DNA from: Convivina intestini
Lineage (GTDB): Bacteria; Bacillota; Bacilli; Lactobacillales; Lactobacillaceae
NCBI RefSeq assembly: GCF_003096575.1
Contig: NZ_QEKT01000007.1
Coordinates: 1-64,000, forward strand
Reading direction: 5' to 3'
Length of the DNA stretch: 64,000 nucleotides
Under the pieces are notes generated by a model that saw only the letters and a list, made by a program, of their open reading frames with translations, made no database searches and was not told the DNA's origin. Positions 37,405-45,961 of the stretch are shown one piece after another. Position 1 is the first letter of the stretch. Each line of letters opens with the position of its first letter. The position numbers and the translations under genes were made by a program.

Positions 37405-37800
37405 ATGACTGCAACAGTACAATATGCCGGAACAGGTCGTCGTAAGAACTCAGTTGCCCGGGTACGTTTGGTACCAGGAACTGGTGCAATTACTATGAAC
37501 GGTAAGTCCATCGAAGATTACATCCCTTTCCCTAACTTGCGTGAAGTTGTTTTGCAACCATTCAACGCTACGGAAACATTGGGTAACTACGATGTATTCG
37601 TTAACGTTAATGGTGGTGGTTTCTCAGGTCAAGCAGGTGCAACTCGTCACGGTATCGCCCGTGCCTTGTTGGTTGTTGATCCTGACTTCCGCTCAGCTTT
37701 GAAGGCTGCTGGTCTTTTGACACGTGACTCACGTATGAAGGAACGTAAGAAGCCAGGTCTTAAGAAAGCCCGTAAGGCATCACAATTCTCAAAGCGTTAA
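37405..37800 (+). CDS. rpsI: 30S ribosomal protein S9
   Basis: S9 touches P-site tRNA through its C-terminal tail. The 131-residue protein contains [19 protein letters not shown] and [19 protein letters not shown], and ends [12 protein letters not shown] with the functional final arginine. AAAGGAG precedes ATG 37405. The 3' end of rpsI is a known insertion point for integrative elements in other firmicutes. Confidence 0.98.
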
Positions 37801-37931: not shown

Positions 37932-40871
37932 ATGAAAAAAAAGTTAAAAGCTTTAGTACCAGATACTAATCTTTCTGATAGTAATTATGCGCTTTATTGT
38001 AGCTATTTGGATGATGCACTAGCAGATAAAAGAGTTAATAATATTGCTCTAATGGGGAAGTATGGTAGTGGAAAATCTTCTATTATTGGAACATATTTTA
38101 ATGTAGAAAATCAAGGAAAAAATTTAAGTTTCATTAAAAAGTTGTTTAACTGCTCAGTGTTAACGGAGAAAAATAGTTCAAAACGTACAGGTAAAGATTC
38201 TAGAATTTTAAGAGTTAGTTTTGCAACATTTTCGAGTCAACAAAATATTGATTCGAAGTTAGAGGTTGATAAACAAACTACTGTTAGTGATAGTGAAATA
38301 TTTGCTAATATAATTAATCAAATAATTTATCAAATTAAGCCTAAAAAAATTCCATTGACTAAATTTAAAATTAAAAGGCCATTGGAAATAAAAATTAAAT
38401 TAAGTGCTTGTGTAGAAGTGCTATTAATTATTTTATGGTTATTAAAACCAAAAAACATGGATATACCTTTTTTAAAAAACATAGATGTAATTCGATATTT
38501 ACCAATCTTGATTGCTATTTTAGGAAGCGTTATATTGTGGAATGTGTTGTCTAGAATTGAATTTAGTAAATTAAAAATATCCTGGAAGGGTAATGAAACA
38601 GAAATTAATCTCCTACAGGATAAATTATTTGAAAAATATATAGCTGAGATTTTATATCTTTTCGAAAACACTGATAAAACAATTTTGGTAATAGAAGATT
38701 TGGATAGGTTTGATGATTTAAGAGTTTTTGAAAAATTAAGAGAGCTTAATACAAAATTGAATTTAGCAGGGGATAAACATTGGCGTTTTATTTATCTGCT
38801 GAAAGATGAAATGTTCAAAAATTCCAAAGAACGTGTTAAATTTTTTGATGTAATTATTCCAGTGATTCCTTTCATGACAAGTAATAATTCTTTTGATAAA
38901 TTATCACAATTGTTTAGCAATCGTAGTAAGGTACTATTAAGTATATTGAGCGGATACATTGATGATTATCGAGTGTTATTGAATATTTACAATGAATATT
39001 CTGTGTATCTTGATATTTTAGATAGTAATGATAGATTACAATTCAGTAGAGATGACAAAGATCAATTATTGGCGTTAATCGCTTATAAAAATTTTAATCC
39101 AAAAGGATTTGAAGATCTCCAAAATGGGCAAGGCGTCTTGGGAAATTTAATAAAATCTTCTTTGGAAGATTTGAATAAGAAGATTAATGATTATGGGAAT
39201 CAGTGGGATTTCAATGCTCTTGAGGGAGATGGAAGCCCAGAAGAGAGAGAGCAAAATGAAGAATTAGAGCAAAAAATTCAAGAAGGAAAAAAGAAATTAC
39301 AAAATTTTCATTTGTCTAGTATAAAAGGGTACTCGGAAACTTTACAGAAAGAAAATGATAATATTTTATGTGCATTAATTGATAGTGATATTATTAAACT
39401 AAATTACAGAGATATTATTAATCAATTTTATGGTGATGATTCAACATTAAAATTTATAAGAAACTTATATTCACCAGTAAATAACACTAATAATCAAATG
39501 TTGCGTTTATATCAATTAGATGAGCTATTGGATCGATTAGAGGACAATGATTATAGGAGGCCACAGATATTAAATCTTGATTTAGCTAAGTGGTTAAAGC
39601 TCAATGACCTGAATCATTTTCAAATGTTAGTTCAAACTGCAATTGATGATAATAGCGGATTTAAGGAAAAATTACTTAATGATGACCCTACAATGTATGA
39701 AAATATTATAGCAGGTGAAGAAGTACAGTTTGATGTAACTAAATTACAACCGATTAAAGTATTAGATATTATTCTAAATAATCGTTACAAAAATAATGAA
39801 AAAAATAGGCAGCAACTTAAGGAATGGTTAAAATCACTAGTTAATGTTGGATCAGCAGAGAGCCTTATAAATATTTTGAAGTCAAAAAATGTTTATGACG
39901 AAATTAAGCCAATTGTTATTGACGTATTGCCAGTTCCCATAAAAGACATTAGGATATTCGATTTAAAAATTCAGGAATATTTAGTTAAGGAAAAGAAGAT
40001 AGAAAATTCTTTTACAAATATAATCAACTATTATGAAAATGTAGGTGATAAATTAGATGAGAATTTAATTGGGTTTATAAATCAATACCACAACGTTGAT
40101 TTTAATTTCTCTGGTGAGGACTACAACACAGGACGTATTATTAATTTTTTGAATGACACACTAAGAAACGCTAAGTTATCTTACGTAGCATTTCAGAACA
40201 TTTGGATGAAATGTCCAATTAGTAATTTTGTTATTAGTAATTCAGAACAAATAGAAAATACAAGTAATGAACGTATTCAATTTTTAGTGGAAATTGGACG
40301 AGTAACAATAGATGTTGGAATTATTAAATTAATTGATTCAAAAGGCATTACAGTTTTTGACCATAGAAAGGATAGTTTTAGTAGCTATCTTAAAGATAGC
40401 GATAACGTTTTTGATACTGGGGTTCATGATATTGGTAGTTTGTTCAGCTATGAGAATAAAATACTAATTAATAACATAAAACGGGTTATTTATGAGAATG
40501 AAATTTCTATTAAAAATCAGGAGTTACTTATTGAATTACTTATCGTGGACAGTGAATGGAATAATAAAATTTTTGTTGATAACTTGTCAATACTTTCAGT
40601 ACAACAAGTGATTAATTATGCGAATAGTAACGATAAGAGTTTGAATGGTAGCCAGAATACAACAAAAAATAAAATTGGAGATAAAATATTTTCTATTATT
40701 AATGAGAATAATAGAAGACGTACAGGTTTTAGTTTTGTCAATAATTACGAAATGAAGAAATTACTTGAGTGGCTTCAAACAAAAGCTGATTTTGATAATT
40801 TTAAAATAGATAATCATGGGAGATTAAAGCCAGTAGGATTTAAGAACTCAAAAAAAATTAACACTAAATAA
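37932..40871 (+). CDS. Large KAP/YobI-type P-loop NTPase with two membrane segments
   Basis: The 979-residue protein has Walker A GKYGSGKSS (42-50), two hydrophobic segments inside the NTPase domain (about 157-172 and 187-206) and Walker B ILVIEDLDRF (251-260), followed by FIYLLKDEMF and a FFDVIIPVIPF segment. Membrane helices inserted between Walker A and an IEDLDR-type Walker B are the hallmark of the KAP family and of YobI-like NTPases. A charged, probably coiled stretch lies near 435-460, and the remaining C-terminus looks like a helical repeat region. The gene is far more AT-rich than its neighbours and uses AGA and ATA codons freely, which points to horizontal transfer. It stands alone between rpsI and xpt. 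A role in defence is possible (PifA is a KAP protein) but unproven. Confidence 0.72.
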   Translation: MKKKLKALVPDTNLSDSNYALYCSYLDDALADKRVNNIALMGKYGSGKSSIIGTYFNVENQGKNLSFIKKLFNCSVLTEKNSSKRTGKDSRILRVSFATFSSQQNIDSKLEVDKQTTVSDSEIFANIINQIIYQIKPKKIPLTKFKIKRPLEIKIKLSACVEVLLIILWLLKPKNMDIPFLKNIDVIRYLPILIAILGSVILWNVLSRIEFSKLKISWKGNETEINLLQDKLFEKYIAEILYLFENTDKTILVIEDLDRFDDLRVFEKLRELNTKLNLAGDKHWRFIYLLKDEMFKNSKERVKFFDVIIPVIPFMTSNNSFDKLSQLFSNRSKVLLSILSGYIDDYRVLLNIYNEYSVYLDILDSNDRLQFSRDDKDQLLALIAYKNFNPKGFEDLQNGQGVLGNLIKSSLEDLNKKINDYGNQWDFNALEGDGSPEEREQNEELEQKIQEGKKKLQNFHLSSIKGYSETLQKENDNILCALIDSDIIKLNYRDIINQFYGDDSTLKFIRNLYSPVNNTNNQMLRLYQLDELLDRLEDNDYRRPQILNLDLAKWLKLNDLNHFQMLVQTAIDDNSGFKEKLLNDDPTMYENIIAGEEVQFDVTKLQPIKVLDIILNNRYKNNEKNRQQLKEWLKSLVNVGSAESLINILKSKNVYDEIKPIVIDVLPVPIKDIRIFDLKIQEYLVKEKKIENSFTNIINYYENVGDKLDENLIGFINQYHNVDFNFSGEDYNTGRIINFLNDTLRNAKLSYVAFQNIWMKCPISNFVISNSEQIENTSNERIQFLVEIGRVTIDVGIIKLIDSKGITVFDHRKDSFSSYLKDSDNVFDTGVHDIGSLFSYENKILINNIKRVIYENEISIKNQELLIELLIVDSEWNNKIFVDNLSILSVQQVINYANSNDKSLNGSQNTTKNKIGDKIFSIINENNRRRTGFSFVNNYEMKKLLEWLQTKADFDNFKIDNHGRLKPVGFKNSKKINTK

Positions 40872-40970: not shown

Positions 40971-42835
<1,865 letters not shown>

Positions 42836-43076: not shown

Positions 43077-43784
43077 ATGACACGTTTAAAACAAATATTA
43101 ATTTTTATCAGCTTTTTTATCTGGGATATTCTTGTTTCCGGTCTGATTCAAGTTTCCGTTTTACCACGCTTCTCAGTACTGCAGCGGATGGGACTTTTAA
43201 CGGTTGGCTTGATTGGATCGTTACTCTATGTTTGGGTGATTATTCGGGTCATTAAAGTCCGTCAGCCTGATTTTTCAATCTTACCGATTAATTTCAAAAA
43301 CTTTCAAAAGGCCTGGTGGTTAATCCGTATGTGGTTAGTCTGCTTACTAGGTTTGGTCGTCTGTGGTATGATTCGGGTTACTCTGTTAGGCAGCAAAGGG
43401 GCGGTTTCAGCTAACCAAGAAGGCATTACTGAATTGATAACTTCTTCTGGAACTTATTCCTTACTGGCCATGCTCTTTGGTATTATTATTTTGGCACCTA
43501 TTATGGAAGAATTGCTTTTTCGAGGTCTGCTATTAGATTACTTTGATAGCCAGAAAAATTGGTGGTATGGGCCCTTGCTTTCGGCCTTTCTTTTTGGCCT
43601 AGCCCATGTGATTTTAACTAAATGGCAGACATCAACCTTGTTGGATCTACTGACCTATGCTACTTTGGGTTTGGTATTAGCCTTTGTTTATAAGAAAACG
43701 GGTCGGATTAGTAATAGTATGGCCGTCCACTTTATGCAAAATCTTTTTTCAGCCGTACCCTTTATCTTGATGGCACTACGTTAA
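43077..43784 (+). CDS. CPBP (CAAX/Abi) family intramembrane metalloprotease
   Basis: This 235-residue membrane protein has about six or seven hydrophobic segments. Family motifs are EELLFRGLLL (glutamate pair plus arginine), FGLAHVILT (histidine) and the final HFMQN. In lactic acid bacteria such proteins are linked to bacteriocin self-immunity or peptide processing, but no bacteriocin gene is near. The ribosome binding site is weak. It is monocistronic, with a terminator after. Confidence 0.85.
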   Translation: MTRLKQILIFISFFIWDILVSGLIQVSVLPRFSVLQRMGLLTVGLIGSLLYVWVIIRVIKVRQPDFSILPINFKNFQKAWWLIRMWLVCLLGLVVCGMIRVTLLGSKGAVSANQEGITELITSSGTYSLLAMLFGIIILAPIMEELLFRGLLLDYFDSQKNWWYGPLLSAFLFGLAHVILTKWQTSTLLDLLTYATLGLVLAFVYKKTGRISNSMAVHFMQNLFSAVPFILMALR

Positions 43785-43796
43785 ATTATACTTATG

Positions 43797-43830
43797 AAAC
43801 ATGTAACAATCTTTGTTTACATGTTTTTTT
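43797..43830 (+). terminator. Terminator after the CPBP gene
   Basis: AAACATGTAA (43797-43806) and TTACATGTTT (43817-43826) form a perfect 10-bp stem with T tail. Confidence 0.85.
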
Positions 43831-43875
43831 ATTGCCTGCAGTTAAGATTTTTTTAAAAGTGAATAAAATATTAAA

Positions 43876-43889
43876 TGTAAGCGATTTCA
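43876..43889 (+). promoter_or_regulatory. Catabolite response element (cre) before the sugar transporter
   Basis: TGTAAGCGATTTCA fits the CcpA operator consensus TGNAANCGNWNNCA at all fixed positions. It lies 9 bases upstream of the -35 box, a place compatible with activation as well as repression. Confidence 0.78.
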
Positions 43890-43898
43890 TTTTGCTTA

Positions 43899-43976
43899 TT
43901 GCAATTAAAAATAAGCTGAGTTATATTGAAAAAAGCCTAGAGCTCTGATGAAATTTAATTCAGGGGAGAGTCTAGC
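43899..43976 (+). promoter_or_regulatory. Promoter and 5' hairpin of the sugar transporter gene
   Basis: TTGCAA (43899-43904), 17 bases, TATATT (43922-43927). The transcript would begin with a hairpin formed by CTAGA..CTCTGA (43937-43948) and TCAG..AGAGTCTAG (43960-43975). The rest of the leader has a CGAATTCG palindrome. Confidence 0.6.
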
Positions 43977-44015
43977 AGGAGTCGAATTCGGCTAATATTT
44001 TTATAGGAGTTTGCT

Positions 44016-45371
44016 ATGCGAGCAAATGTTATTTTTATCTTTATCTTTGGTGCCCTTGGCGGCCTTTTATTTGGTTTTGATACCGGTATCATTTCTGGAG
44101 CGTCGCCCCTAATTGAAGGCGATTTCCAATTATCAGTTGAACAAACGGGCTTTATTACCTCATCGGTTTTGATTGGTTCAACGATTGGTGCCTTTACCAT
44201 TGGGCCTTTATCAGATCGATTTGGTCGTAAGAAATTATTAATTGTCTCATCTTGGTTTTTTATTGCTGGATCATTATTAACGGCTTTTGCCAATGGTTTT
44301 GCCACGATGGTGATTGCTCGAATTGTTTTAGGTTTGGCAGTTGGAGCAGCCTCGGCCTTAACACCAGCTTACTTAGCTGAATTGGCACCAGCCAAACATC
44401 GTGGTTCTTTGGGTACGATGTTCCAGTTGATGATTACTGCTGGTATTTTGTTAGCTTATGTTTCTAACTTGGCCTTTTTGGGACACAACCTCTTGGGTGT
44501 TCGTGATTGGCGTTGGATGCTGGCGTCAGCTTTAATTCCAGCAGTCTTACTTTTTATCGGTGGACTAGTTTTGCCAGAATCCCCTCGTTATTTGTTTGCT
44601 AGAGGAGAAGAAACGGCAGCTCGAAAAGTCTTGGAACGGTTACGTCAAGATGCTCCTCAAGATATTGATGTTGAATTAAAAGAAATGGGCGAAATTCAAA
44701 AACAACCTAAGGGTGGTTTAAAAGATCTTTTCACCATTGCTCGTCCAGCTGTGATTGTTGCAATTGGAATTATGTTTTTACAACAGTTAGTTGGTATTAA
44801 TTCTGTTATTTATTTCTTACCACAAGTTTTTATTAAAGGATTTGGTTTTGATGCCGGTCAGGCCATTTGGATTTCAGTTGGTATTGGAATCGTTAACTTT
44901 GTGGTAACAATCCTGGCTACGATGATTATGGATAGTTTTGATCGTAAGGCCTTGTTGATGTTTGGATCAGTTGTCATGACTGTGTCTTTGGGCGTCCTAA
45001 CTATTTTGAACTATACCGTGAGTGTAAAAATCGCTGCGATTCCAACGATGCTGTTGATTGCAACTTATATCTTTGGTTTCGCTATTTCATGGGGACCGAT
45101 TGCTTGGTTGTTAATTGGGGAAATATTCCCGGTATCAGTCCGTGGTATTGGTTCGTCCATTGGATCAGCAGCTAATTGGATTGGAAACTTTGTTGTTTCT
45201 CAGTTCTTCCTAGTTTTGCTGGCTACTTTTCATAACAATGTTGGTGGACCTTTTGGTATCTTTGCGCTCTTTGCCTTCATCTCGATTTTCTTCGTTAAGT
45301 ATTTAGTACCTGAAACGCGGGGCAAGTCATTGGAAGAAATTGAGATGGAGTTGCGTGAAAAGCAGTCTTAA
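44016..45371 (+). CDS. Sugar:H+ symporter (MFS sugar porter family)
   Basis: The 451-residue protein has 12 predicted membrane segments and the sugar porter signatures: DRFGRKK (after helix 2), PESPRYL (after helix 6), QQLVGINSVIYFLP (helix 7) and PETRGKSLEE at the C-terminus. Likely substrates are pentoses or hexoses such as xylose, arabinose or galactose, which sequence alone cannot settle. A cre site upstream links it to carbon catabolite control. AGGAG precedes ATG 44016. Confidence 0.92.
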   Translation: MRANVIFIFIFGALGGLLFGFDTGIISGASPLIEGDFQLSVEQTGFITSSVLIGSTIGAFTIGPLSDRFGRKKLLIVSSWFFIAGSLLTAFANGFATMVIARIVLGLAVGAASALTPAYLAELAPAKHRGSLGTMFQLMITAGILLAYVSNLAFLGHNLLGVRDWRWMLASALIPAVLLFIGGLVLPESPRYLFARGEETAARKVLERLRQDAPQDIDVELKEMGEIQKQPKGGLKDLFTIARPAVIVAIGIMFLQQLVGINSVIYFLPQVFIKGFGFDAGQAIWISVGIGIVNFVVTILATMIMDSFDRKALLMFGSVVMTVSLGVLTILNYTVSVKIAAIPTMLLIATYIFGFAISWGPIAWLLIGEIFPVSVRGIGSSIGSAANWIGNFVVSQFFLVLLATFHNNVGGPFGIFALFAFISIFFVKYLVPETRGKSLEEIEMELREKQS

Positions 45372-45378
45372 TTTTTCA

Positions 45379-45402
45379 GGGCCGATTTTTCGGCCTTTTT
45401 TA
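45379..45402 (+). terminator. Terminator after the sugar transporter gene
   Basis: GGCCG (45380-45384) and CGGCC (45391-45395) with a short loop, followed by a T run. Confidence 0.82.
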
Positions 45403-45446
45403 TTGCATTAATATTTAAAAATACCTATCATATTGGGGAATAGATT

Positions 45447-45455
45447 TGTTACAAT
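45447..45455 (+). promoter_or_regulatory. Extended -10 promoter of the PASTA protein gene
   Basis: TG-T-TACAAT at 45447-45455. No -35 hexamer at standard distance. Confidence 0.45.
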
Positions 45456-45496
45456 GGGTGGCATGTTTAAATTCATTTTATTGAGGAGGTAATGGC

Positions 45497-45961
45497 TTGT
45501 CTAAGAATAAATTCGTCGAATCTTTAGAGAAAGTAACAGTTGGGGTAATGAGTCCAGCTGTATTAGAAAAAGTAGCACAGACTGTTAATTCAGAAGTTGC
45601 TAAGCGTAAAAACTATATTAAAATTCCCAATGTAAAGGGATTATCACCGCAAGAAGCTGGTAAAATTTTAGAAAGTTATGGTTTTGAATATTCTAGTTCG
45701 TTAACTGTGCCAGGTTCGCGTTTGGCCAATAAAAACGCTGATCAAATTATTACCATTCGTCCTCATTCAGGCCTAGTTGTTAGTCCTGACACCCATATTA
45801 AGTTATATTATGCCGATGAACAGATTATTGAACGTAGTAAAGAAATTGAAGTAGAAGAAGAGGAAGCCAAGCAACGCCATCATCAACAACGGGAAGCAGT
45901 TGCTAAAGAAGTTAACGGTTTTTCGAAAAAAATATTAAAAAAATTACCATTTAAAAAGTAA
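45497..45961 (+). CDS. Small PASTA-domain protein without signal or membrane segment
   Basis: The 154-residue protein has one PASTA-like domain (about 40-107: IKIPNVKGLSPQEAGKILE ... IITIRPHSGLVVSPDTHIKLYYA). A charged, glutamate-rich helix follows, with a lysine-rich end. PASTA domains normally sit outside the cell on PrkC kinases and PBP2x and sense peptidoglycan, so a version with no export signal is odd. The start is TTG 45497, seven bases after GAGGAGG; the ATG at 45492 is in another frame and stops early. Function unknown. Confidence 0.75.
   Translation: MSKNKFVESLEKVTVGVMSPAVLEKVAQTVNSEVAKRKNYIKIPNVKGLSPQEAGKILESYGFEYSSSLTVPGSRLANKNADQIITIRPHSGLVVSPDTHIKLYYADEQIIERSKEIEVEEEEAKQRHHQQREAVAKEVNGFSKKILKKLPFKK

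Follow-up and report, generated by a model that had tools for sequence, protein, structure and literature searches.

The window analyzed here, 64,000 nucleotides from the start of contig NZ_QEKT01000007.1 of Convivina intestini, carries a single gene for a membrane NTPase in the gap between rpsI and xpt (Table 1). The open reading frame begins with an ATG codon and has a GGGAG ribosome-binding site 5′ of it; a scan for promoters and terminators returned nothing above shuffles. With a GC content of 27.1% (GC3 21%), the gene stands apart from its neighbors at 40-47% GC, and the lowest-GC 2.9-kb slice of the window falls on it (window mean 39.5%, SD 2.8%; lowest value elsewhere 36%). AGA and AGG account for 22 of its 36 arginine codons and ATA for 29 of its 104 isoleucine codons, all of them rare in the adjoining genes. 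An earlier note had remarked on this AT richness and free use of AGA and ATA, and the counts bear it out. The same note had described a Walker A motif, two membrane helices and a Walker B motif, which indeed follow one another in this order along the protein, and the nucleotide-binding motifs are conserved in alignments of relatives.

Table 1 Features of the rpsI-xpt locus and of the NTPase gene within it.
Feature	Position	Strand	Basis or remark
rpsI, left housekeeping flank	37405..37800	+	
Terminator-like hairpin (judged by eye) and T run following rpsI; left limit of the exchangeable segment	37820..37853	+	Common to the sister species (G001) up to about here; not listed by the terminator scan
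YobI/Tmn-family membrane NTPase gene	37932..40871	+	Intact ORF, 979 aa; PF20693 E 9.3e-84; PADLOC Tmn E 5.4e-37; GC 27%
Walker A GKYGSGKSS, residues 42-50	38055..38081	+	Sequence; conserved in three alignments of relatives
First membrane helix, residues 153-171, located between the two Walker motifs	38388..38444	+	Hydropathy 2.13; helix in structure model
Second membrane helix, residues 184-202	38481..38537	+	Hydropathy 2.12; helix in structure model
Walker B region ILVIEDLDRF, about residues 251-260	38682..38711	+	E255, D256, D258 and R259 invariant in two alignments of relatives
C-terminal region, about residues 410-979: helical repeats, terminal helix and beta-hairpin; proposed sensor	39160..40868	+	AF2 model; family-wide profile alignment
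AT-rich spacer leading up to the xpt stop; right limit of the exchangeable segment	40872..40970	.	G001 alignment picks up again a few bases at most from the xpt stop (40971)
xpt, right housekeeping flank	40971..41540	-	

Profile searches place the protein in the YobI-ATPase family. The PF20693 match covers residues 22-403 and positions 1-362 of the 363 in the profile, at 282.5 bits against a cut-off of 27; a control search for the family picks up Bacillus subtilis. The PADLOC model for the defence system Tmn also matches (125 bits), with its best stretch at profile positions 258-605 of 1273. The Pfam KAP_NTPase profile (PF07693), on the other hand, gave no match to the protein at E<=10. Of the KAP/YobI-like label in the earlier note, the YobI half is therefore retained, and YobI/Tmn is the precise name. 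What remains of KAP is an architectural resemblance: in KAP P-loop NTPases, too, membrane helices interrupt the stretch from Walker A to Walker B (here residues 153-202). The KAP group includes PifA, which excludes phage T7 and for which death by membrane depolarisation has been suggested (PMC8594841). NCBIfam holds no family for the protein and none for E. coli Tmn, PHROGs has no family for it, and searches of PDB sequences with the single sequence or a profile gave nothing meaningful.

The closest tested relative found is Tmn (PADLOC PDLC02220). An E. coli plasmid protein annotated as an anti-phage transmembrane ATPase (Tmn; WP_311202809.1, pHB42-2, locus L105) matches PF20693 at E 4.6e-104 and is 30% identical to the Convivina protein over residues 6-412 (BLASTP E 3e-42; hhalign 100%), so that the NTPase domains, each with two membrane helices inside, are homologous. 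Both are single-gene systems, Tmn too is carried on mobile DNA, and the common motifs include EDLDRF, KFFD, NI.NE and AYKN. Tmn is nevertheless a protein of 1273 aa from E. coli, whereas the 979-aa protein belongs to a Gram-positive host. Only the first ~410 residues align, the C-terminal ~840 residues of Tmn finding no counterpart, and the protein is therefore called Tmn-like rather than Tmn proper; in the tree it lies on a branch separate from that of Tmn, which is itself long.

Likeness over nearly the whole length is found instead with Firmicutes YobI-type ATPases of 1200-1300 aa (hhalign, 918 columns, E 1.4e-94). The earlier note had seen a long C-terminal region with no recognised domain. 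No named domain was found in residues 410-979, as it had said, but the region does align with the C-terminal part of these longer proteins, and so is a feature of the YobI family, with about 200-300 residues missing here. Together with five other Lactobacillaceae proteins of ~780-1020 aa, the protein forms one clade with support of 100/100, within which the alignment shows moderate conservation over the full length. It is thus a short-form Tmn/YobI protein, a form so far seen in Lactobacillaceae.

The genus sample consists of two genomes, one per species: the source genome and that of a sister species (G001). The NTPase gene is present in one of the two and absent from G001. The flanks are closely similar in the sister species, with rplM-rpsI 99% identical, xpt 95% identical in protein and nearby flanks at ~86-100%. 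The alignment ends behind the rpsI hairpin (~37850) and restarts beside the xpt stop at 40971. The corresponding gap in G001 (L095:6269-8830, G001:C6) encodes a DpnII endonuclease (PF04556, E 1.1e-61), an N6_N4 methylase (E 3.5e-56) and a D12-class adenine methylase (E 1.4e-60), which together make up a complete DpnII-type restriction-modification system. The NTPase gene was accordingly acquired after the two species diverged or close to that time, and presence and absence at this locus agree with the acquired status proposed earlier. A recent sweep through rplM-rpsI was considered for the 99% identity and set aside: a 7.4-kb stretch elsewhere, also starting with ribosomal-protein genes, is 98% identical, so that the value is not anomalous.

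The traces expected of an integrase or insertion sequence were sought at the junctions. In the window the two junctions share no direct repeat of at least 9 bp, in G001 a single 9-bp match was found, no inverted repeat extends beyond 9 bp, and no integrase was seen by eye among the ORFs neighboring the NTPase gene. An element placed at rpsI by a tyrosine integrase would be recognized by an integrase gene and a duplicated rpsI 3′ end or att site, and the locus shows no such combination. The earlier note had called the region behind rpsI a known insertion spot for mobile elements; integrative elements in the rpsI site are indeed on record in streptococci (PMC12479173), but the present junctions carry neither integrase nor att duplication. 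Because no junction duplication and no nearby integrase were found, we infer that the segments were exchanged by recombination through the flanks.

Homologues are patchily distributed, with a match in 14 of 377 good-quality genomes of the family and, at the level of the order, 21 of 295 genomes above the PF20693 cut-off. A genome scan with a single sequence recovered only two distant Flavobacteriaceae relatives. The relatives checked occupy loci other than rpsI-xpt. In G396 a type ISP restriction-modification enzyme overlaps the YobI-family gene by 4 nt; in G182 (L086:4932-15321, G182:C1) the surroundings of the YobI-family gene look like a defence island, with an MrcB_N-NOV_C protein, a NACHT NTPase and a protein resembling CAAX proteases. 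Two IS3-type transposase genes on opposite strands, with identical Pfam scores, flank the gene in G115 (L088:4051-10334, G115:C1), and a phage integrase adjoins it in G278. When the 108 ORFs lying closest to 27 family genes were compared with 108 control ORFs at arbitrary sites in the same genome set, 221 PADLOC families were matched near the family genes against 24 in the controls, which are not gene counts and overstate the contrast, as one protein can match many PADLOC models. The matches near family genes include type I and IIG restriction-modification, AbiD, AbiK, AbiO, Nhi and RmrA; many of those in the controls are helicase cross-hits. Scans of viral contigs found 18 distinct loci with a family match, two of which were examined (L106 with head and portal genes, L107 with an integrase), and 628 plasmid records have a match. 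An annotated phage collection gave no match, and a viral scan using one homologue gave no relatives. As observations on individual loci, the arrangement in G115 resembles a composite transposon, and in G371:C1 (L084:8654-9095) the YobI-family frame runs ~440 nt upstream of the first ATG, GTG or TTG, which may point to a lost or non-standard start or to a gene in decay.

These settings bear on what the gene does. A housekeeping or stress-related membrane NTPase of the host, AT-rich by chance, would fit the moderate full-length conservation in the Lactobacillaceae clade. Such a role is nonetheless very improbable for a gene that is missing from the sister species and from ~96% of family genomes, whose checked relatives sit at other loci, and whose base composition is foreign. 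Nor are the homologues tied to housekeeping genes, whereas a consistent housekeeping role was what the earlier note had said would refute the defence reading: around them lie defence genes (restriction-modification, Abi and others) as well as integrases, insertion sequences and genes of prophages, and the control loci lack such company. Since relatives occur on plasmids, in prophages and between insertion sequences, the gene might alternatively have plasmids or other mobile elements, rather than phages, as its chief target, or be selfish, addiction-type cargo. We regard this as improbable too: the gene is chromosomal and alone, no antitoxin-like partner ORF lies in the gap, and the tested relative Tmn blocks phages, namely T2, P1, phiVi and phiX in E. 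coli, by a mechanism that is unexplored (PMC11846954).

Because of its acquisition, the DpnII-type exchange in the sister species and the defence and mobile settings of its homologues, the reading of the NTPase gene as a defence gene is well supported and very likely correct. The earlier note's single-gene, membrane-tethered, acquired defence protein, put forward as attractive but unproven, gains further from the membership of Tmn in the same family. On the fuller reading, this member of the Tmn/YobI family is an acquired gene for anti-phage defence and occupies a small exchangeable rpsI-xpt defence slot; we consider this likely.

The structure of the protein was predicted with AlphaFold2. A first run on 5 sequences was unusable (pLDDT 47), and the model from 14 sequences is only moderate (mean pLDDT 64, pTM 0.35). 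Helices make up nearly the whole of its C-terminal part, for which confidence is highest at residues 640-810 (pLDDT mostly 75-89) and low in other parts, and the model ends in a terminal helix and beta-hairpin of modest confidence. Foldseek searches of PDB and BFVD gave no match at E<=0.001, and AAA+ matches came only from VIA realignment, in which the modeled NTPase core could be superposed on Orc5 (Z 14.4), Cdc6 (13.8), TnsC (13.6), BrxC (11.7-12.4), the STAND chain 6mfv (11.0) and RdrA 8hr8 (10.3). RdrA of RADAR and BrxC of BREX are STAND/AAA+ switches to which the core is alike in fold; the sequence identity of 7-12% is at the general AAA+ level, however, and the NTPase gene is without partner genes. 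The modeled fold would fit a putative STAND/AAA+-like switch. Since the model is only moderate, the reading of the C-terminal region as a sensor is weak.

By analogy with Tmn and PifA, the most likely mechanism would be that of a membrane-tethered switch, which senses through its helical C-terminal region and then exerts its effect at the membrane. The two helices inserted in the STAND/AAA+-like NTPase would tether the protein to the membrane, and the C-terminal helical repeats would detect an infection-associated product. Nucleotide exchange might then lead to assembly and to action at the membrane, either by depolarisation or by halting phage replication there, and the infection would be ended at the cell's expense or the phage stopped directly. 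Within this scheme the trigger and the division into sensor and effector are guesses.

A defence gene of this kind could instead work on DNA and not by killing through the membrane, its NTPase directly sensing or blocking phage DNA there as it enters or replicates, much as AAA+ relatives of the ORC/TnsC type handle DNA. The core of the model is closest to ORC, Cdc6, TnsC and BrxC among AAA+ proteins, although likeness of AAA+ fold is no proof of DNA binding, and the NSF and STAND chains score nearly as high. Tmn escape mutants map to nmad5, a phage DNA-modification gene, and yet deletion of nmad5 did not abolish sensitivity to Tmn (PMC11846954). The terminal helix and beta-hairpin could be wing-like, in a part of the model that is modest in confidence. 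Direct action on phage DNA seems rather unlikely, if worth weighing, and an effector step at the membrane is favored over it by a modest margin only.

The kind of protein described here is already known from Tmn and YobI; what is new is the short-form member and the slot, a gap between rpsI and xpt where the sister species has a DpnII restriction-modification system and which is therefore a candidate defence slot. Tmn is a tested defence protein of unexplored mechanism, and comparing it with a shorter single-gene relative, whose C-terminal region is conserved yet different, is a natural way to separate the sensing from the acting part. The exact exchange with the DpnII system suggests that housekeeping genes can enclose a defence slot without an integrase. 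We tentatively propose, accepting that this broader picture may well not hold, that the rpsI-xpt gap is an integrase-free defence slot in the genus, in which compact cassettes (a one-gene Tmn-like NTPase or a three-gene DpnII system) are swapped by homologous recombination via the conserved flanks, and that the short YobI proteins of the Lactobacillaceae clade form a defence family apart, with a sensor region of their own. If this is true, gaps between housekeeping genes are a place to seek new defence genes in lactic acid bacteria.

The post-rpsI position was also inspected in other genomes. G018, from a different genus, has directly after rpsI (L096:5485-10170, G018:C1) a 253-aa protein, a sigma-70-like protein that PADLOC matches to MzaA (E 1e-31) and a RecQ-like DEAD-box helicase of 1102 aa, for which the match is 'poss. 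alt. Cas3' (E 5e-134). G016 and G371 have ordinary-looking genes at this position. The set in G018 looks like another candidate defence operon. Elsewhere in the window, at 43750-45500, identity to the sister species falls to 77-85% over a sugar-transporter-like gene, against 87-96% on either side, and a local replacement there is possible.
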